From the NCBI GenBank assembly GCA_021841025.1, contig JAKBWA010000088.1, positions 1-52,969 of the forward strand: a stretch of DNA of 52,969 nt, given 5' to 3'. Every line of letters begins with the position of its first letter. Within the stretch, counting starts at the first letter, position 1. Source of the stretch: Bacillota bacterium (GTDB lineage: Bacteria; Bacillota; Sulfobacillia; Sulfobacillales; Sulfobacillaceae). Shown one piece after another: positions 2,265-25,147 of this stretch. The translations under genes and the position numbers were made by a program. The notes under the pieces were generated by a model. That model did not search any database. It saw nothing but the letters and a program-made list of their open reading frames with translations, and was not told the DNA's origin.

Positions 2265-3449
2265 TTGACTGTGATTCCCATGCTAAGAGCCATGACTTCC
2301 AAACTTAAAGAGTCGGGAGGTGGTGAGGCTATTTCAGAAAGAAGGCGACTGCATGCGTTGTGGTATTTTGGACAGACCTTCGTTATCGGTCTTGATCTAT
2401 ATATCGTTTCCCCGTTATTACCGGCGATTTCCCGGCACTATGGTCAGCCAGCCAGTCGCGTCAGTTTTTTAATCACGGCTTTTGCACTGACTTATGCGGC
2501 CTTTTCCCCTATCTGGGGTGTGTTTGCCGATCGTTATCCACGCCGCCTTCTCGGCCTTCTGAGCTTGAGTCTATTCCAGGCGGGGGACGTTATTACCGCT
2601 TTACAGCCAGCCTTTGCCTGGCTTGTTTTTAGCAGATCATTGGCTGCCGCCGGTGCTGCTGGCTTTACGCCCACTTTATATGCGTACATTGCCGACACGA
2701 CCCCTTTAGAAACACGGGGAGGAACGATGTCCGTAGCGTCGGCGGGATTTTCCACGGCCACGTTTTTGGGTATCCCTATAGGACTCATGATTGCCAACAT
2801 ATGGTCTTGGCCCGCTGCCTTTTGGCTCGTATTCGTCCTGAGTCTATTTTCCTGGATGGTAAGTTGGAGAGTATGGAAGCCCACCCCACTCCCCCAAGCT
2901 TCCCACCCTCCCCGCATCTGTCCTGCTCCCGAACTGGCATGGAATTATGGACTGACCGTTTTGGCGTTTGCCAGTTTTGGCTCTGTATATACCTATCTTC
3001 CTTTAGATTTAATCAGGCATCATCATTTTGCGACCACTCAACTCACCTGGTTCATGACCGCTTTTGGTCTCTTTGGGCTCTTGGGAACCCTGGCAGCGGG
3101 CTATCTGAGTGACAGAGCAGGCCGCGTGACAGTCATTCGCTTTGGCCTGATGGCCGAAGTGCTCTTGCTCCTAGGACTGCGGCAACATTGGCGGGGAAGC
3201 CTCCTTTGGGTCAATTTGCTTCTGTTTTCCATGGTAACGTCATATACCCCCGTGCTGAAGGCTTTAGCGAGCTCCAAAGGAGCGAAAGGATTGGCTTTGT
3301 CGTGGAATAATGCGGCAATGTATTTTGGACTTTCAGCAGGATCTTGGGCAATGGCCGCCGTCTGGACTCGGGGCATGTCTGCTATCTATTTAGGCGCAAC
3401 CGTGTTCACCACAGGAGCATTTGTTCTGTCTCTCCGCTTACGTACATAG
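2265..3449 (+). CDS. MFS transporter
   Basis: A 394-residue, strongly hydrophobic protein of the major facilitator superfamily with about 12 predicted membrane helices. Loop motif A is visible twice: GVFADRYPRRLLG between helices 2 and 3, and LSDRAGRVTVIRFG in the second half. Such proteins are proton-coupled exporters or importers; the substrate cannot be read from the sequence. The annotated start is TTG. GTG 2271, ATG 2280 and ATG 2292 are alternatives, and none has a good ribosome binding site, so the N-terminus is uncertain by about 10 residues. The gene diverges from the prolyl oligopeptidase and lies 65 bp before the LysM hydrolase, which has its own ribosome binding site. Confidence 0.85.
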   Translation: MTVIPMLRAMTSKLKESGGGEAISERRRLHALWYFGQTFVIGLDLYIVSPLLPAISRHYGQPASRVSFLITAFALTYAAFSPIWGVFADRYPRRLLGLLSLSLFQAGDVITALQPAFAWLVFSRSLAAAGAAGFTPTLYAYIADTTPLETRGGTMSVASAGFSTATFLGIPIGLMIANIWSWPAAFWLVFVLSLFSWMVSWRVWKPTPLPQASHPPRICPAPELAWNYGLTVLAFASFGSVYTYLPLDLIRHHHFATTQLTWFMTAFGLFGLLGTLAAGYLSDRAGRVTVIRFGLMAEVLLLLGLRQHWRGSLLWVNLLLFSMVTSYTPVLKALASSKGAKGLALSWNNAAMYFGLSAGSWAMAAVWTRGMSAIYLGATVFTTGAFVLSLRLRT

Positions 3450-3520
3450 ACATTTATGGGTCTAATTTCCATATTTGGATCATATTATAAAACAAGAACA
3501 GTAAGTTTGGAGGTATGCGA

Positions 3521-4384
3521 ATGATTCAAAACCCCGAAATCCGTACCTGGATCCGGCGTAAAGCTCGTTGGTCGGAAAACGTCGTAGCCGGTCTATTGCT
3601 GCTGCTTATCGCCGTAATGATCAATGTGAGCTTGCCTCGTGCGATTTCTCACCCGGGAAACCCGACCTTGCCCACCAATTCACCACAACCTGTCCTCGCG
3701 TCGACATCATTATCTTCCGTCAAACCATTGCCAAAGACGCCCATAGCCGCCCCATACACCTACCACACTCGCTGGGGAGACTCGTTATGGTCCATCGCCA
3801 ATCGTTTTCATGTGTCGATTCACGACCTGAGAGCGGCCAACCATTTAACGTCGACAACCATCTATGCGGGGCAGACATTGGTCATTCCCTCCTCTAACGC
3901 AACACAAATTCAAGACACACCAAGTCGCAGGGATCGCCAACACCCTTTGGCAACCGCAAGCCAAGATGAACCTTCGGTCTGGGAATCTCGGGACTCGCGG
4001 GCCGAGAGCACACCCTCAACAATTCTATACTCGCGCCAAGATTTACGTCTTTTGGCCCACTTGGTTCATGCAGAAGCCGGAACTCAGCCCTTTCTGGGCC
4101 AGGTAGCAGTCGCAGCAGTGGTCATTAACCGAGTAAAAGCTCCAGGGTTCCCAAAAACGATTTCTCAAGTCATCGAGGAGCCGGGGCAATTTGAATCCGT
4201 AACGAACGGCTCCATATGGGAAAGAGCCAATTCTACCGCTTATCGAGCAGCCGCCGCAGCCCTAAAAGGATGGGACCCGACCCACGGCGCCCTCTATTTT
4301 TACAATCCGTCTTTGCCTTTCAGCCGCTGGATGAGCACCTTGCCAATTACTTCAACCATTGCCGGCCAATTATTTTGCCGTTGA
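3521..4384 (+). CDS. LysM plus SleB-type cell wall hydrolase
   Basis: An exported peptidoglycan hydrolase of about 287 residues. One N-terminal membrane helix or signal anchor (about 24-42) is followed by a proline/serine-rich linker, one LysM domain (about 80-128, with WGDSLWSIANRF and AGQTLVIP) that binds glycan strands, a second linker, and a C-terminal hydrolase_2 (SleB/CwlJ) domain (about 175-287). The hydrolase holds the family signature LLAHLVHAEAG and the VAAVVINRV segment. SleB-type enzymes degrade spore cortex during germination or act in wall turnover. Two ATGs lie at 3515 and 3521. The TTGGAGG site ends one base before the first, so the second (spacing about 7) is preferred. It converges on miaA with 2 bp between stops. 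Confidence 0.88.
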   Translation: MIQNPEIRTWIRRKARWSENVVAGLLLLLIAVMINVSLPRAISHPGNPTLPTNSPQPVLASTSLSSVKPLPKTPIAAPYTYHTRWGDSLWSIANRFHVSIHDLRAANHLTSTTIYAGQTLVIPSSNATQIQDTPSRRDRQHPLATASQDEPSVWESRDSRAESTPSTILYSRQDLRLLAHLVHAEAGTQPFLGQVAVAAVVINRVKAPGFPKTISQVIEEPGQFESVTNGSIWERANSTAYRAAAAALKGWDPTHGALYFYNPSLPFSRWMSTLPITSTIAGQLFCR

Positions 4385-4386
4385 GC

Positions 4387-5328
4387 TCAATTGAGCAGAT
4401 GCTCTTTGACATCATGAACAATGTGTTGGATAACCCGTTGTGGGCTTAGGAATGACAGGTCCAGCCACCGAGCACCCTTTTCTGAACGAAACCAAGTCAA
4501 TTGACGTTTGGCATATTGCCTCGTGTGCCTCACGATTAAGAGATCGCGTTCTTCTTCCGTTGCTAAGCCAAAGGCCCACTTCACTGTCTCTTTATAACCA
4601 ATGGCGGATAAGGCCTGGGAAGATGGGCTGACACCATTATGTAATAAGGCCAGTACCTCGTTTGGCAATCCCTGCCTGATCATTTCGCGGGTACGAAGAC
4701 CAATTCTCTCATACAATTCCGTCAGAGGGCGAGTCAGCACCCAATACGACACCCGGTAGGGGCTTTCTTGGGGATCACGCGGCAAAGGCTTGCCCGTTGT
4801 CCAAAACACCTCCAGCGCACGGGTTAAACGATTGTAATCCTGGGGAGCAATTGCGTGATAACTAGCCGGATCCACTGTGTTCAAAATGCTGCGGACGATG
4901 TCCCAGCCATGCTCGTCTCCTATCATGCGGATGTGCTGACGGATCACCCGCGAAATTCTCGGTTCTTGAGGCGAAAACAGATAGTTTTGAATCAGAGCCC
5001 GAATCCACAGACCTGTGCCACCCACCAAAATGGGGAGCTTACCCTGCTGCACGATTTCCGTAATTGCTGGCTGAGCATAGTGTTGGTAGTCGGCCACAGA
5101 AAAAGGCTCATGCGGATCGATAATATCAATGCCGTAGTGAGGAATTCCTCGGCGAGCTTCCGTCAACAGTTTGGCTGTGCCGATATCGAGCCCTCTAAAG
5201 ACCTGTGCGGAGTCGCAGGAAATCACGGCGCCATTCAGTTCATGCGCAATGGCCAAACTGATTTCAGTCTTACCCGCTGCCGTGGGCCCCGCCAATATTA
5301 ACAAAGGGTGTTTACCCCTTTCGTCCAA
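4387..5328 (-). CDS. miaA: tRNA dimethylallyltransferase MiaA
   Basis: A 313-residue enzyme that transfers a dimethylallyl group to N6 of A37 in tRNAs reading codons that begin with U. The P-loop GPTAAGKT lies near residue 14, followed by the family segments SCDSAQVFRGLDIGTAK and GGTGLWIRAL, and by QDYNRLTRALEVFWTTGKP. The start is a TTG preceded by GGAGGAGG, and it overlaps the end of mutL by 17 bases. This places miaA last in a translationally linked Ppx-like/mutS/mutL/miaA operon; miaA next to mutL is a common bacterial arrangement. Length is normal. Confidence 0.95.
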   Translation of the reverse strand: MDERGKHPLLILAGPTAAGKTEISLAIAHELNGAVISCDSAQVFRGLDIGTAKLLTEARRGIPHYGIDIIDPHEPFSVADYQHYAQPAITEIVQQGKLPILVGGTGLWIRALIQNYLFSPQEPRISRVIRQHIRMIGDEHGWDIVRSILNTVDPASYHAIAPQDYNRLTRALEVFWTTGKPLPRDPQESPYRVSYWVLTRPLTELYERIGLRTREMIRQGLPNEVLALLHNGVSPSSQALSAIGYKETVKWAFGLATEEERDLLIVRHTRQYAKRQLTWFRSEKGARWLDLSFLSPQRVIQHIVHDVKEHLLN

Positions 5329-7036
5329 AGCGCCGGTCCACCTCCTCCAATGTCAGGTGCAGCATCGTCGGGCGGCCGTGAGGGCATCCTCTGGGGTCCT
5401 CCACGCTCGCCATCATATCCACCAAAGCCTGCATTTCCGCCATCGTCATCACCCGGTAGGCCTTAATGGCGGCTTTGCATGCGGCCAGAGCGTATTTTGC
5501 TTCCTGCGTCCAAAATATAGGATGGCCATGAGAATGAGCACCATCACTCAGGGATTCTAGAACGGTGTGCACAATCCCGCCTGTGTCCCTGCCCGAATTG
5601 ACAATACCTTGAGGCACAGCCCGAACCATTAATGTTGTGCCGCCAACTTCAGCAATATCGAACCCCATTTCCCCAAACATATCCCGGTATTCGCGCCATT
5701 TCGCCCACTCATCCGGCAAACACGTATAGCTGAATGGAATCAATAGTGGTTGTGCGGCAAGAATGTCCTGACCCATACGCCTAAACTGTTCATAATATAC
5801 ACGTTCATGGGCCGCATGCTGGTCGATTAAATACAGTCCCAACGGACCTTGGGCAATAATGTACTTGGCTTGCCACTGTGCCAGAGGAGTAAGAGAAGTA
5901 TACTCATCATGCAAAACGACTCTGCCTTCTTTGGGTGTGATGTCCCCTGGCCACGTAATTTGCGAAACTTTGAAGGCTGATTCAGGCTCTCTAGCGTGAA
6001 ATTCTGCTTCACCAGATGAAGAAGGTACACTTAAAGGTTCCGATGGTGACTGTTGAGTCAGAACTTTCTCCACAGCCCGGAAAAGTTTTCCGGCTATGTA
6101 CCGCTCGCGATCAAGCCGTACTTCTTGTTTGGTAGGGTGAGCATTAGGGTCGACTTCAAAAGGTTTAACTGTTACGAAAAGCCAAAAATACGGATATCTG
6201 CGTTCCGGAAGATGGGGTTTGAAGGATTCTTCGACAGCATTGCGCAGGACCCAATTGCTCACCCACCTGTGATTCACAAAGAGACTTTGTCCTTGTCTTG
6301 TTCCCCTGTTCTTCACGGGAGGGCAAATGTAACCAGTAATACTCAAATCCTCATATTCCGCATGAACTGACAAGAGGCTATTGCCAATGTCTTGTCCGTA
6401 CAATAGTACAATCGCGTCCTCAATCTTACCGTTTCCAGACGTGGCCCACAGGACTTTGTTCTGATCCTTTAACGAAAGTGCTACATCAGCATACCCTATG
6501 GCATAATGGTGTAGCAGTTGCTGGACCGCTCCGAGCTCGGCAGAAGTGGATCTGAGAGTTTTCAGTCTAGCAGGCACATTGAAAAACAAGTCTTCCACGC
6601 GAATTGTGGTACCCTCTGCCATAGGCGCCGGAGTTAATTCGCCTACGCGTCCTCCTTCCACCACTAATTGAAATCCATAAGGTTCACCCTGAGGCCTAGA
6701 CCACAAACGTGTGCGACTCACTGCCGATATTGCTGCCAAAGCCTCCCCGCGAAACCCTAAGGTGAGGGTACGAGACAGATCATCCAGCACGTGAATTTTG
6801 GACGTGGCATGGCGCCGTACGGAGAGAACCAAATCATCTCCATCCATGCCGTGCCCATCATCCTGCACAGCAATAAGCCGTCGTCCTCCATCGTCAATTG
6901 TTACGCTGATGCGCTTGGCTCCTGCATCCAAACTATTTTCCACCAATTCCTTTACCACCGACGCCGAACGCTCGACCACCTCTCCGGCTGCAATTTGGTC
7001 GGCGACTAAAGGATCGAGAATATGTATACGACTCAT
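5312..7036 (-). CDS. mutL: DNA mismatch repair protein MutL (endonuclease type)
   Basis: A 574-residue MutL. The N-terminal GHKL ATPase shows IAAGEVVERSASVVKELVENS, DDGHGM and GFRGEALAAIS. The C-terminal domain carries the nicking-endonuclease motif DQHAAHERVYYE (about 405-416), with ACKAAIK near 519 and CPHGRP near 551, the metal-site motifs of MutL proteins from bacteria without MutH. It should therefore nick the unmodified strand itself after MutS recruitment. The start is ATG 7036, six bases after AAAGGAG; an in-frame reading extends 20 codons upstream but lies inside mutS and is unlikely. The ATG overlaps the mutS stop in an ATGA, suggesting translational coupling. Confidence 0.96.
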   Translation of the reverse strand: MSRIHILDPLVADQIAAGEVVERSASVVKELVENSLDAGAKRISVTIDDGGRRLIAVQDDGHGMDGDDLVLSVRRHATSKIHVLDDLSRTLTLGFRGEALAAISAVSRTRLWSRPQGEPYGFQLVVEGGRVGELTPAPMAEGTTIRVEDLFFNVPARLKTLRSTSAELGAVQQLLHHYAIGYADVALSLKDQNKVLWATSGNGKIEDAIVLLYGQDIGNSLLSVHAEYEDLSITGYICPPVKNRGTRQGQSLFVNHRWVSNWVLRNAVEESFKPHLPERRYPYFWLFVTVKPFEVDPNAHPTKQEVRLDRERYIAGKLFRAVEKVLTQQSPSEPLSVPSSSGEAEFHAREPESAFKVSQITWPGDITPKEGRVVLHDEYTSLTPLAQWQAKYIIAQGPLGLYLIDQHAAHERVYYEQFRRMGQDILAAQPLLIPFSYTCLPDEWAKWREYRDMFGEMGFDIAEVGGTTLMVRAVPQGIVNSGRDTGGIVHTVLESLSDGAHSHGHPIFWTQEAKYALAACKAAIKAYRVMTMAEMQALVDMMASVEDPRGCPHGRPTMLHLTLEEVDRRFGRKG

Positions 7037-9591
7037 CCGCGGCTCCTTTCCTGTGCCGAAGAACGTTTGAGTCTCTCCTGCCAGGCTTGTAACCATTCCC
7101 AGGCCTCACGAGGGGCTATCTCATCCAAGTCAAGTTGTTTTAAGGCTGCCAGTAATTCTTGGCCTAGAGGATCTGGTCTAAACCACGTAACCTGTTGCAC
7201 GGGTTCCGTCAATTCTCTGGTTTGTTCTTCCCACATCTTCAGTAAATGTCTCGCTCGAGTTAAAATAATTTTGGGAAATCCTGCTAATTCGGCTACTTCC
7301 ACGCCATAAGATCTTGAGGATACTCCGGGAATTATCCGGTGGGTAAAGACCAACCGGCCGGTCTTCGCATCGTGAATCACTTCCACACTGAAATTTCTCA
7401 TACGGGGATGGGTTTCGGCCAACTGCGTCAACTCGTGATAATGCGTAGCAAACAGCGTCAGGGGGGAAGACTCTTGGCCCAATCGCTCTACCACAGCCTG
7501 CGCAATGGCCATGCCGTCGAATGTCGATGTGCCCCGCCCCAACTCATCCAGAATCACGAAACTTTCGTGATCTGTTTGCCGGAGAATCCATGCCATTTCC
7601 TCCATTTCAACCATGAACGTGCTTTGCCCGCGGTAAATATCATCGTCCGCGCCAATACGCGCATACATTCCCGAAAATACCGGAAGAATCAGTTCTTCAC
7701 AGGCTACTGGGGCCCCTATATGAGCCATAACCACATTCAGCGCCAAGGCTCGCATGAATGTCGATTTCCCACCCATATTCGGACCGGTTATCAGCATCAC
7801 CCGCAAGTCTTCTGGAATGGACACTGAAGAAGGAACAAATTGCGTGGTCATCGTCTCTAAGACAGGATGGCGTAACGCCTTGGCTTTGATATCGCGGCAA
7901 CTACCATCCTGCCACTGGGGAAAGTGATAGGAACGCTCATAGGACACCTCGGCCAAAGCCGTGAACACGTCGAGTTCTGCCAACCACCAAGAGACCTGAT
8001 TCAAAACACCGCTGTGATCTCGTACCAAATCCACCAGTGCCATGGCCTTTTCCTGTTCCAGTGTTTTTAGTTTATCCAAAGCTTCGAGAATGTCTCTTTC
8101 CAAATCTAACAAAGCATCACTGGTGTACCTCGTGGCATTAACCATGGTCTGTCTTTGCCTCCAGTCACTGGGAACTTTATGGTCTTGTCCCCGACTGACT
8201 TCCAAATAATAGCCAAAGGTGCGATGGTATCCTACCTTCAAGGTTTTGATGCCTGAACGTTCTTTTTCTTGGTGCTCGAGTTTGGCCAAGGCTTCGCGCT
8301 GGTTGTTTACCAAGGATCTAAGGCGGTCAATTTCGCCGTCCACACCATCTTTCATGATACCTCCCTCATCCCATTTGGCAGGTGCGTCAGCGGAAACCGC
8401 ATCCAGATGGACAAAGATCTCTTGCAATACATGATATGGCGGCATCTTAGTCTGTCCCGAAAATTCCCTTTCTTGGACCAACTGCATAAGATCAAATGTC
8501 GTATCCAAAGCCTTGCCAATTGCCACAAGGTCTTTCGGGGTCGCCATACCTAGAGCCACCCTGGAAACCTTCTTGGAAAGATCGCCAATTCTGCGAAGCA
8601 AGCGCCTAATGTCCTGGCGTGGCTTCAACGCCTCCATAAACCACCGGATCGTCCTTTGACGCCCGTCAATTTCCTCTAAAGACGTAAGAGGTCTCTCCAA
8701 CCATGAAAACAACAACCGTTCTCCCATGGGTGTTCCTGTCTCATTTAATATCGAAAACAAACTGGCGTCCGACGAAGGCAACACGTGCAATTGCCGCAAA
8801 GTTCTTGTACTCACCGCCATGTGTTGGCCAGGGTGGTACCATAAAATATTCGTAAGATGAATCGGTTCCCGGCGTTCAAGAGAGGTGAGATAACTCCAGA
8901 GAACAAAAACAGCAATTTTTGCGGTTGGATGGTCTGTTAGTCCAAAGGTTCTTAATCCAGCGGTGCCGAATTTTTGTGCTAAATAAGTCTCCAGTTCGCG
9001 TGCACCAGGCACATGGTCGAACCATCCTTCGCTAGGCACCTGACGACCCGCCAACAAAGGGTCAACGTCCCAATTCGTTAAAAATTCGTGGGGATGCCAA
9101 CGCTCCCATTCCTCCTGGATCCGTTGTGACGAACGGGAATTCATCGTCTGTTCCGTCAAGTACACTGACCCCGTGGCCAGTTCTGCCACCGCAAGCGCCC
9201 ATTCTCGTTTGGCGACGTAGAGCACTGCTAATCGGGCCGCATGGGTATCTGCTTCGTCGACAAACGTTCCCGGGGAAATAACGCGAACAATCTGCCGTTC
9301 CACCAATCCTTTGGTTAGGCGGGGATCCTCCATTTGTTCCGCGATGGCTACAGTCAGTCCTTTTTCCACTAACTTACGCAAATACTGATCGACTGCATGA
9401 TAGGGAACCCCGCACATCGGGGTCACCTTATCACGTGTTGTCAACTGTACATCCAAGATGGGAGCTGCCACTTCTGCATCTTCACCGAACAACTCGTAAA
9501 AATCGCCTAGCCGAAAAAATAATAACGCCCCAGGATTTTCCTTCTTCAAACGTTGGTATTGTTCCTGCATTGGCGTGATTTTGGTTTTCAT
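7033..9591 (-). CDS. mutS: DNA mismatch repair protein MutS
   Basis: An 852-residue MutS, the normal length. The N-terminal mismatch-binding motif RLGDFYELF is present, and the C-terminal ABC-type ATPase has Walker A GPNMGGKST near 605, a Walker B FVILDELGRGTSTFDG and the downstream FATHYHEL. It recognises mispairs and recruits MutL. The start is ATG 9591 behind an AGGAGGG site; the open frame runs 61 codons further upstream, but that stretch is arginine/proline-rich and overlaps the preceding gene. The ATG overlaps the stop of the Ppx-like gene as ATGA. Confidence 0.97.
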   Translation of the reverse strand: MKTKITPMQEQYQRLKKENPGALLFFRLGDFYELFGEDAEVAAPILDVQLTTRDKVTPMCGVPYHAVDQYLRKLVEKGLTVAIAEQMEDPRLTKGLVERQIVRVISPGTFVDEADTHAARLAVLYVAKREWALAVAELATGSVYLTEQTMNSRSSQRIQEEWERWHPHEFLTNWDVDPLLAGRQVPSEGWFDHVPGARELETYLAQKFGTAGLRTFGLTDHPTAKIAVFVLWSYLTSLERREPIHLTNILWYHPGQHMAVSTRTLRQLHVLPSSDASLFSILNETGTPMGERLLFSWLERPLTSLEEIDGRQRTIRWFMEALKPRQDIRRLLRRIGDLSKKVSRVALGMATPKDLVAIGKALDTTFDLMQLVQEREFSGQTKMPPYHVLQEIFVHLDAVSADAPAKWDEGGIMKDGVDGEIDRLRSLVNNQREALAKLEHQEKERSGIKTLKVGYHRTFGYYLEVSRGQDHKVPSDWRQRQTMVNATRYTSDALLDLERDILEALDKLKTLEQEKAMALVDLVRDHSGVLNQVSWWLAELDVFTALAEVSYERSYHFPQWQDGSCRDIKAKALRHPVLETMTTQFVPSSVSIPEDLRVMLITGPNMGGKSTFMRALALNVVMAHIGAPVACEELILPVFSGMYARIGADDDIYRGQSTFMVEMEEMAWILRQTDHESFVILDELGRGTSTFDGMAIAQAVVERLGQESSPLTLFATHYHELTQLAETHPRMRNFSVEVIHDAKTGRLVFTHRIIPGVSSRSYGVEVAELAGFPKIILTRARHLLKMWEEQTRELTEPVQQVTWFRPDPLGQELLAALKQLDLDEIAPREAWEWLQAWQERLKRSSAQERSRG

Positions 9592-23015: not shown

Positions 23016-24485
23016 TTAAGACGCCACAAGCGATCGCACCTGGTCTCCAGACAATGTCTCATGCTCCAACAGGGTATCAGCCAATCTTAACAATTTTTCC
23101 CGGTGTTCCATAATCAAAGCGTCCACGATGTCTTGCTGTTCTGTAATAATATCCCGAAGCGTCTGATAGAGAAGGTCTTGGGATAAGGCTTCTTCTTTAA
23201 TCACACCTAGCGATGAAATCCCTGAAAAAACCATTTGGCGGGCTATGTCCCACGCCTTCTCAAAGTCATTGGCCGCGCCTGTACTTCTTTCACCCAAAAT
23301 CATGCGCTCGGCGGTAGATCCTCCTAACAACACTTGGATATCAGCTTTCAACTCAGAGACCGTTTGTAAAAGTCGATCGTCGTCAGGGGCGTGCCGAACA
23401 AACCCTAGAGCCATGCCGCGAGGAGCAATCGTTACCGAAGAGACAGACCCAGGGGCCACTAACTCGCCGATTAAAGCATGTCCGCTCTCGTGAATCGAGA
23501 CACGTTTAATGTCATCCACGCGAAGCGTCCGGTCCATTCGTTCTCCCAGCATGACTTTGTCCACAGCCTGTCTCAAATGCTTGGTCCCAATGGTTTCAGA
23601 TTCCTCGCGCATTGCTAAAATCGCAGCTTCATTACAAACACTCTCCAGGTGAGCTCCTGAAAAACCAAAGGTTTCCCGCGCAATCGCCTCAAGATCCGCG
23701 TCAACATCGAGCGGCTTGTTACGCGTATGCAATTTCAAAATGCTTAGCCGCCCTTCCCGGTCAGGCAAATCCACGCTGACTAAACGATCAAATCGTCCAG
23801 GACGCATGAGCGCTTGGTCCAGCAAATCTACCCGGTTCGTAGCCGCCATAACCAAAATCCTAACATCATCATCGTGTACGGGCATACCGTCCATCTCAAC
23901 TAGCAATTGATTTAAAGTTTGATCGTATTCAAGATGGGATTGGTTGCTCCCTCTTCGTCCAGCCATTACTTCGATCTCGTCGATAAAAATAATAGCGCTC
24001 GATTTCGACTCCTTACGCGCCATATTCCTGGCTTCCTGAAAGAGCTGACGCACTCTTTGTGCTCCTACACCTGCATACATTTCCACAAATTCAGATCCAG
24101 ACGCCGACAAAAATACGGATTCGGTATAATGCGCTGCAGCCTTGGCCAACAAGGTTTTCCCGGTGCCAGGAACACCGGTGAGCAATATCCCCTTTAATGG
24201 TCTTATTCCCAGGCGACTAATCACATCAGGTTTCAAAATGAATTCGAGAGCTTCTTTCAATTCATTTTTGGCCATATTCTGCCCGCCGATATCCTGAAAG
24301 GATGTTGTAACCTGGCTCACTTGCACTTTACGCACCGTGCGTGTGCCTAGACGGTTGAAAATACCTGACGCGTAAATCGCGCCGCCTAGCCCGAGCAACA
24401 AGACAATCGGCCATATATCCACACCATCGAGACCCAAAAATACTAACAGAGCTAAGACGAACCCTATAATTACTTCTCTAATCAT
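23016..24485 (-). CDS. Compact FtsH-like ATP-dependent zinc protease
   Basis: A 489-residue AAA plus M41 protease. Two hydrophobic segments (about 4-19 and 25-41) are joined by only five or six residues, so the extracytoplasmic domain of normal FtsH (about 70-80 residues) is missing. The AAA domain has Walker A GVPGTGKT (104-111), Walker B FIDEIE, pore loop FVEMYAGVGAQRVR and the ATNRVDLLDQALMRPGRFDR region. The protease has HESGH (332-336) and the third ligand Asp407 in TGAANDFEKA. All catalytic residues are kept, so it should be active. ATG 24485 (or GTG 24488) overlaps the stop of the upstream membrane-protein gene. A standard ftsH may lie elsewhere. Confidence 0.9.
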   Translation of the reverse strand: MIREVIIGFVLALLVFLGLDGVDIWPIVLLLGLGGAIYASGIFNRLGTRTVRKVQVSQVTTSFQDIGGQNMAKNELKEALEFILKPDVISRLGIRPLKGILLTGVPGTGKTLLAKAAAHYTESVFLSASGSEFVEMYAGVGAQRVRQLFQEARNMARKESKSSAIIFIDEIEVMAGRRGSNQSHLEYDQTLNQLLVEMDGMPVHDDDVRILVMAATNRVDLLDQALMRPGRFDRLVSVDLPDREGRLSILKLHTRNKPLDVDADLEAIARETFGFSGAHLESVCNEAAILAMREESETIGTKHLRQAVDKVMLGERMDRTLRVDDIKRVSIHESGHALIGELVAPGSVSSVTIAPRGMALGFVRHAPDDDRLLQTVSELKADIQVLLGGSTAERMILGERSTGAANDFEKAWDIARQMVFSGISSLGVIKEEALSQDLLYQTLRDIITEQQDIVDALIMEHREKLLRLADTLLEHETLSGDQVRSLVAS

Positions 24486-25002
24486 CACCCGGCCCCCCTA
24501 ACTTCAAGGGCATTACTTCGTCCAACCAATGGTTTTGGGATTTCAGTGCAACAAAAATGTGGTGATTGCTCAATTGGACCGTCGCTTGCATGTGATGGTC
24601 CTGGGCTAGGCGCTGAATAGCTGCGTTCATGGATACATAATGTCCTGTGGCTTCCCCTTGCGCTACGATTAATCGCAGGGAATTCACGAGACCATTCATG
24701 GCGGCATTGGCATGGTTGTGAATAACCAGTTTGGTCAAAACATGACCTGTAACATTCTTGCTTGCGTTTTGTATAGCCTCGTAACTACTCATGAGATTTG
24801 CGTTTTTTGTCAAAGTTACCGTGACGCTTTCGTGAGGATTTACGACAACCTGACTAACTCGGTGGAGGCGGATGATGGCCTGTTTCAGAGGCGAGCGCAC
24901 TGCTGAGCGCACATAAACCCATTGAGCTCCGCGCAATATACCCAATGCGACAACAAATACCGCAAAAACTATGAAAACTTGCCTCACCGAAAACTTCATC
25001 AT
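24478..25002 (-). CDS. Single-pass membrane protein of unknown function, partner of FtsH-like gene
   Basis: A 174-residue protein with an N-terminal membrane helix (about 8-28) and a predicted extracytoplasmic domain. The region NPHESVTVTLTKNANL looks like beta-structure, followed by helical stretches. No family is recognised. Tandem ATG codons follow AAAGGAGGCGAG, a strong site. Its last codons overlap the start of the FtsH-like protease gene, so the two are translationally linked. It could be the protease's membrane adaptor, a substitute for the missing FtsH loop, or a substrate; this is inference from position only. Confidence 0.65.
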   Translation of the reverse strand: MMKFSVRQVFIVFAVFVVALGILRGAQWVYVRSAVRSPLKQAIIRLHRVSQVVVNPHESVTVTLTKNANLMSSYEAIQNASKNVTGHVLTKLVIHNHANAAMNGLVNSLRLIVAQGEATGHYVSMNAAIQRLAQDHHMQATVQLSNHHIFVALKSQNHWLDEVMPLKLGGPGDD

Positions 25003-25147
25003 TGCAACTCGCCTCCTTTACCTGGACTTTTTGCCCCGCATGGTCATAATGCCGCCGAACACTGGGCAGTATATCATAGGAGAGGTATTTGTGAGTGCGT
25101 CAAAGGTTGTCTCTAGAGGAGGAATTCGACAATACTAACGATTTCTT

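Follow-up and report, generated by a model that had tools for sequence, protein, structure and literature searches.

Two overlapping genes lie on the minus strand of the window, which is the whole analysed stretch of 52,969 nucleotides. One encodes an FtsH-type protease of reduced length, called short FtsH here, and the gene directly upstream encodes a small membrane protein, called the partner. The features of the pair are as follows.

24478..25002, minus strand: partner, 174 amino acids, a single-pass membrane protein with a predicted ectodomain of two alpha/beta subdomains
23016..24488, minus strand: short FtsH, 490 amino acids from a GTG start, or 489 from an ATG three bases on
24357..24473, minus strand: membrane hairpin of short FtsH by hydropathy, helix 1 at residues 6-22 and helix 2 at residues 28-44
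24153..24176, minus strand: Walker A motif GVPGTGKT of short FtsH, its Lys invariant in 77/77 and 61/61 relatives
23976..23981, minus strand: Walker B Asp170-Glu171 of short FtsH, invariant in aligned relatives
23478..23492, minus strand: zinc site HESGH (His333, Glu334, His337), assigned from invariance and the Peptidase_M41 match
23265..23267, minus strand: Asp408 of short FtsH, invariant in aligned relatives
25064..25078, minus strand: element TATGATATACTGCCC of the extended -10 type, TGnTATACT, upstream of the pair

The first-pass annotation had described the upstream gene as overlapping that of short FtsH and as encoding a single-pass protein with its own extracytoplasmic domain. The open reading frame is confirmed, its end overlaps the start of short FtsH by 11 bp (8 bp counted from the ATG), and one membrane helix and an ectodomain are predicted for its product.

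Domain structure of the short FtsH

Short FtsH carries the Pfam domains AAA, AAA_lid_3 and Peptidase_M41, and AAA and Peptidase_M41 are both found in 77/77 members of its family. It has the features of AAA+ proteins of the FtsH/M41 family, namely Walker A and B motifs, arginine fingers and an aromatic pore residue, together with the HExxH motif and downstream Asp of M41 peptidases. In two alignments, Lys111, the pore Tyr138, Asp170, Glu171, Asn218, Arg229, Arg232, His333, Glu334, His337 and Asp408 are invariant in 77/77 and 61/61 relatives, which bears out the earlier reading that all catalytic residues are kept; the Walker, pore, arginine-finger and zinc roles are those we take these residues to have, Asp408 presumably being the third zinc ligand. 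The outside domain of FtsH, FtsH_ext, has no Pfam match in the short FtsH of the window and is absent from the 24 families matched at E <= 0.001 by the 77 members. The match to NCBIfam TIGR01241 starts at profile position 141 and scores 438.8 bits, below the curated cut-off of 600. Judged by its domains, short FtsH is thus a member of the FtsH/M41 family that lacks the defining feature of canonical FtsH, FtsH_ext. The Peptidase_M41 match (window 23016-23510) covers only 161 residues against a 191-position Pfam profile, suggesting that a stretch usual in FtsH is absent there too.

The two membrane helices are separated by about five residues according to hydropathy, and by about 75-96 residues in 34/34 full-length FtsHs, that of E. 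coli included. The turn holds a conserved Gly22 (71/77) and Pro27 (74/77), and the length of the hairpin is constant in 76/77 rows of alignment A5 and in 55/61 rows of alignment A2, the remaining six being longer by two residues. The proposal that the extracytoplasmic domain is missing and the helices are joined by a turn, put at about six residues, is confirmed, with a turn of about five residues. The host genome also proved to contain the full-length FtsH that the first-pass annotation had suggested looking for, in two copies with open frames of 613 and 607 amino acids; both have FtsH_ext above the curated cut-off, and the FtsH_ext matches of this genome are confined to them.

Predicted structure of the partner protein

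Proteins of the partner family are typically about 177 residues long. The window partner has one N-terminal membrane helix, with the N-terminus predicted inside. A charge count finds the N side of this helix richer in K/R in 194/231 partners, which favours the N-inside orientation. AlphaFold2 predicts a long helix (residues 6-44) followed by beta-beta-alpha-beta, two helices and three strands, the pLDDT being 91.6 over the full chain and 95.3 over the ectodomain; one of the two runs used 78 rows including L213, a fragment of a frameshifted FtsH, and both A6 and the partner profile used in the later searches omit that row. The AAA and FtsH matches of one member of the partner set were traced to this same L213, the first part of the frameshifted protein.

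No Pfam or NCBIfam family fits the partner, whether the window protein or the alignments of 78 and 61 members are used. Band_7 has no match in the window partner at E <= 1 and is not among the 25 families listed for the 78 partners or the 25 listed for the 61. A Foldseek search with the predicted structure gave no match at E <= 0.001, the best VIA-align results are Z 9.2 over 62 residues and Z 8.6 over 72, and sequence comparison with solved structures gave unconvincing matches only. The structural matches appear to reflect common alpha/beta arrangements only. The order of secondary structure elements fits the ring-building motif, which we take to be an alpha-beta-beta-alpha-beta domain common to PrgK and FliF; the corresponding Foldseek rows, 4oyc and 8zds, are weak and are outranked by metal-transporter and acyl-CoA synthetase domains. 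On the basis of these searches, the partner appears to be a new protein family coupled to short FtsH.

When the partner profile was compared by hhalign with that of the outside domain in 34 canonical FtsHs, the score was 32.7 and the probability 63%; 90 decoys reached at most 24.0, and 30 column shuffles at most 12.3. The probability ranges from 39 to 73% over variants of the comparison, yet is 6.8% with the ectodomain profile alone. The alignment is collinear and places the first ectodomain subdomain opposite FtsH_ext. The Pfam FtsH_ext profile reaches a best E of 0.011, in 2/78 partners, and is not among the 25 families listed for the 61 partners; FtsH periplasmic domains are not among the 50 structure matches listed for the partner, a listing that excludes nothing. 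Part of one partner helix is aligned with a segment of FtsH_ext that we take to be a strand, and for this reason the resemblance of the first subdomain to the FtsH outside domain, at a borderline profile level, is taken as suggestive and not as homology. The idea that the partner could replace the lost FtsH domain is therefore only suggested: its ectodomain is in place by prediction, and the similarity that would tie it to the lost domain is borderline. A 92% profile match between A4 and A5, that is, between partner and FtsH, was discarded as an artefact of the wrong row L213.

Pairing of the two genes

In the class to which the window belongs, 117/125 loci have a single-pass open reading frame of about 177 residues directly upstream of short FtsH under strict ORF rules. 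The remaining loci are as follows: in G041 and G028 the partner is present though missed by the strict rule, in G020, G111 and G085 the contig ends within the partner, in G004 the partner is found at the end of another contig, in G101 a degenerate copy lies beside short FtsH, and in G025 a truncated copy adjoins FtsH with an intact one 1.75 kb upstream. The G025 locus (L142, oriented 2662-6023) shows tandem decay, with one intact and two truncated partner copies and small-gene insertions separating the intact partner from FtsH; the intact copy has been kept despite the collapse beside FtsH. In G101 (L087, oriented 5544-7485) a partner without its helix stands in one open frame with FtsH, probably a pseudogene or an assembly error, and this sole candidate for a natural fusion of the two genes was rejected.

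The 80 named loci comprise 76 with the partner directly upstream, L213, in which FtsH is frameshifted, and three cut by a contig end, so that the partner is directly upstream in 77/77 uncut loci; two of the three cut loci show partial partners. In 60 further loci, chosen by hand among those listed for the phylum so as to represent many families, the partner is always on the FtsH strand and in 59/60 lies within 200 bp, the one exception being G323 with a distance of 3.4 kb. The reading frames overlap in most class and named loci, most commonly by 4 or 8 bases. G066 (L146 and L147) and G119 (L135 and L139) each carry the pair twice.

Profile searches of a 299-genome sample of the phylum found short FtsH in 214 genomes, three of them with broken pieces only, and the partner in 207. 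Of the short-FtsH genomes, 205/214 have a partner by profile, and the nine without one at E <= 0.001 comprise eight with a diverged partner directly upstream and one cut at a contig end. A partner without short FtsH occurs clearly in G359 and doubtfully in G190 (E 7e-4). The first-pass annotation had proposed that the FtsH is coupled to its membrane partner and had held that coupling would fail if the genes were apart as often as together or if the small protein occurred where no such FtsH exists; the former is not seen in any of the locus sets, and the latter is confined to these two genomes. The recurrence of the arrangement across the phylum implies that it is not due to chance. The lone partner gene of G359 (L293, oriented 4675-5290) lies directly upstream of genes that look by eye like rplU and rpmA, and the SpoIVA match of that genome is weak (E 1.5e-11).

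Coupling between the membrane helices

Direct couplings between partner and FtsH were computed by a mean-field method from 231 related pairs, which are few for such an analysis. Among the top 20 inter-protein couplings, 10 fall in one block formed by partner residues 5-30 and FtsH residues 3-21 (the initial Met is not counted). This block corresponds to the partner helix and FtsH helix 1 and occupies 4.8% of the area tested. The count is steady, at 9-11 of the top 20, over nine parameter settings. With 14 other FtsH segments at most 6 of the top 20 fall in any block of equal size, and 12 trials of random pairing likewise gave at most 6 in any block. A stricter permutation, which swapped the FtsH ends among the three or six nearest relatives and so kept most shared ancestry, yielded no more than 8 in this block, and no more than 9 in any block, in 92 trials. 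The block follows from the membrane coupling proposed by the first-pass annotation, yet it was chosen once the top pairs were known, so that the any-block count (10, with a maximum of 9 in the 92 permutations) is the more reliable measure. The strengths of the couplings in the helix block are no higher than those of implausible ectodomain-cytoplasm pairs, and only their concentration is special. Because pairs that are unable to touch reach the same individual strengths, the analysis provides moderate evidence, and not proof, that the partner membrane helix contacts FtsH helix 1. Together with the phylum-wide adjacency and the near-perfect co-occurrence, it upholds the proposed coupling of the two proteins.

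Distribution and evolutionary origin

In a 151-genome sample of the class, short FtsH was found in 126 genomes (three with fragments; the listing was read by eye) and the partner, by a single-sequence search, in 92. A scan with a 40-residue signature over one genome per species revealed at least 579 relatives, and the 80 loci kept from it include Sulfobacillus, Alicyclobacillus, Desulforamulus, Sporotomaculum, Syntrophomonas, Dethiobacter, Tepidanaerobacter and Halothermothrix. Among the matches listed, the closest named relative is a MAG of Sulfobacillus benefaciens, with about 90% identity in short FtsH.

In a 66-row tree built by a quick method, from which two short and nine full-length rows were omitted, their Walker A lying outside the search pattern, 41 short forms are on one side of a branch with an SH-aLRT support of 100% and a stem of 1.64 changes per site, and 25 canonical FtsHs, that of E. 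coli among them, are on the other. The single, fully supported clade and its long stem suggest that the short FtsH had one old origin and was passed down mostly vertically. L193, whose contig is titled Desulfovibrio sp., carries a short FtsH that groups with Bacillota, on the Dethiobacter side, and is probably a misnamed or mixed MAG.

Two other origins or roles were considered and rejected. A mobile or plasmid origin does not fit, as the partner has no match in 72,556 plasmid records and the FtsH matches there are distant (<60% identity). The PADLOC matches that would point to a phage-defence protein (IetA, TRIP13) fall solely on the shared AAA domain.

Expression of the pair

Upstream of the pair, TGATATACT is identical in 7/7 genomes of the genus; it precedes the start of the partner gene by about 60-75 bp. 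A promoter scan matched the upstream element with its TG; it gave 6 sites in the region, with a mean of 4.1 in shuffled sequences. The element is likely to be the pair's own promoter, and its conserved extended -10 form hints at ordinary vegetative expression.

Proposed mechanism and alternative explanations

The pair probably constitutes a two-component FtsH whose outside module is provided by a second subunit that touches the protease within the membrane. The two genes would then yield one membrane-bound, ATP-dependent zinc protease made of two different subunits. Its catalytic subunit would be a paralogue of FtsH with a minimal hairpin as its anchor, most likely forming a hexamer that, like FtsH, draws substrates through the pore into the protease chamber. 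The partner would be inserted with its N-terminus inside, its single helix packing against FtsH helix 1 and its ectodomain held outside the membrane above the protease ring. There the ectodomain may stand in for the outside domain of FtsH and, as an adaptor, recruit or gate membrane substrates. The displaced intact partners of G025 and G323, the degenerate partner of G101 and the lone partner of G359 count against this reading, as do the unexceptional coupling strengths.

A bolder reading is conceivable but rather doubtful: an ancestral FtsH copy may have lost the outside domain from its chain, the domain persisting in trans in the partner, and an exchangeable ring of partners would cap the bare protease hexamer. 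The partner would then consist of a membrane helix, an FtsH_ext-like subdomain and an added C-terminal subdomain. The same genetics and the same helix contact would also be expected if the partner were an inhibitor or a regulated substrate, binding the hairpin and keeping the protease off until an outside signal changes it. The much faster evolution of the partner agrees with such a role, since 24/60 partner relatives are at <=20% identity to the window protein, and 0/60 FtsH relatives are below 48%. However, an inhibitor need not be retained by essentially every carrier, and the translational overlap and fixed gene order suggest joint assembly, so that this role seems improbable.

A device active in spore formation only is an equally improbable identity for the pair. 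SpoIVA is present in 209/214 short-FtsH genomes and in 41/85 genomes without short FtsH; however, since these genomes are related, the association does not amount to independent evidence and an exact test overstates it. The pair is absent from 41 SpoIVA genomes and present without SpoIVA in two near-complete ones, G225 and G252 (97% and 100% complete), and it is therefore neither confined to sporulation nor needed for it; the conserved upstream element, resembling an ordinary extended -10 promoter, also speaks against a sporulation device. Finally, the two genes might be neighbours merely through a stable pgsA-cinA-recA region, with no functional link. The locus is indeed conserved: of 180 loci, some of which are truncated, 135 have cinA and 120 have recA downstream, and 104 have rimO upstream. 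However, pgsA was found upstream in only 38/180 (by a single query sequence, which would miss diverged copies), the reading frames overlap in most loci, partner and short FtsH co-occur across the 299-genome sample, and the coupling pattern weakens once the FtsH ends of near relatives are swapped, all of which makes mere neighbourhood very hard to credit.

FtsH is the model membrane-protein quality-control protease, and since its outside domain is part of the same chain as the protease, what that domain does is difficult to test. In most sampled genomes of the phylum, outside module and protease are seemingly encoded by two genes, beside an ordinary FtsH. If the two-component reading is true, the outside module could be deleted, exchanged or titrated while the protease is left intact. 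The findings point to a membrane protease that is widespread in Bacillota and apparently undescribed, and that annotation probably files as a plain FtsH and a hypothetical protein.

Comparison with known systems

Literature searches covering few subscription journals revealed no description of a bacterial FtsH without a periplasmic domain or of this pair. For the Bacillota acidophiles that it studied, one report counts 2-3 ftsH copies (PMC10490939). Short FtsH shares with canonical FtsH (TIGR01241; E. coli FtsH) the AAA+ and M41 domains, the two N-terminal membrane helices and the ATPase, pore and zinc residues, which are invariant. It differs from canonical FtsH in having a turn of about five residues in place of FtsH_ext between the helices, in scoring below the TIGR01241 cut-off, in forming a separate clade and in its shorter M41 match (161 residues against 191 positions).

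In Bacillus subtilis, the membrane protein YqgP is described as serving FtsH as an adaptor (PMC7231995), and in this it resembles the role proposed for the partner. However, YqgP is itself a rhomboid protease and the FtsH on which it acts is canonical, whereas the partner has one helix and belongs to no known family. The FtsH-HflK/C system of E. coli provides another comparison. There, the periplasmic domain of FtsH itself touches HflK (PMC12048511); short FtsH, in contrast, has no periplasmic domain available for binding. The window partner differs from HflK/C in having no Band_7/SPFH match at E <= 1 and in being one gene and not two; the host genome has two Band_7 proteins. The pair as predicted resembles the FtsH-HflK/C system in that the extracytoplasmic mass is carried by membrane subunits distinct from the membrane AAA protease itself (PMC12048511).
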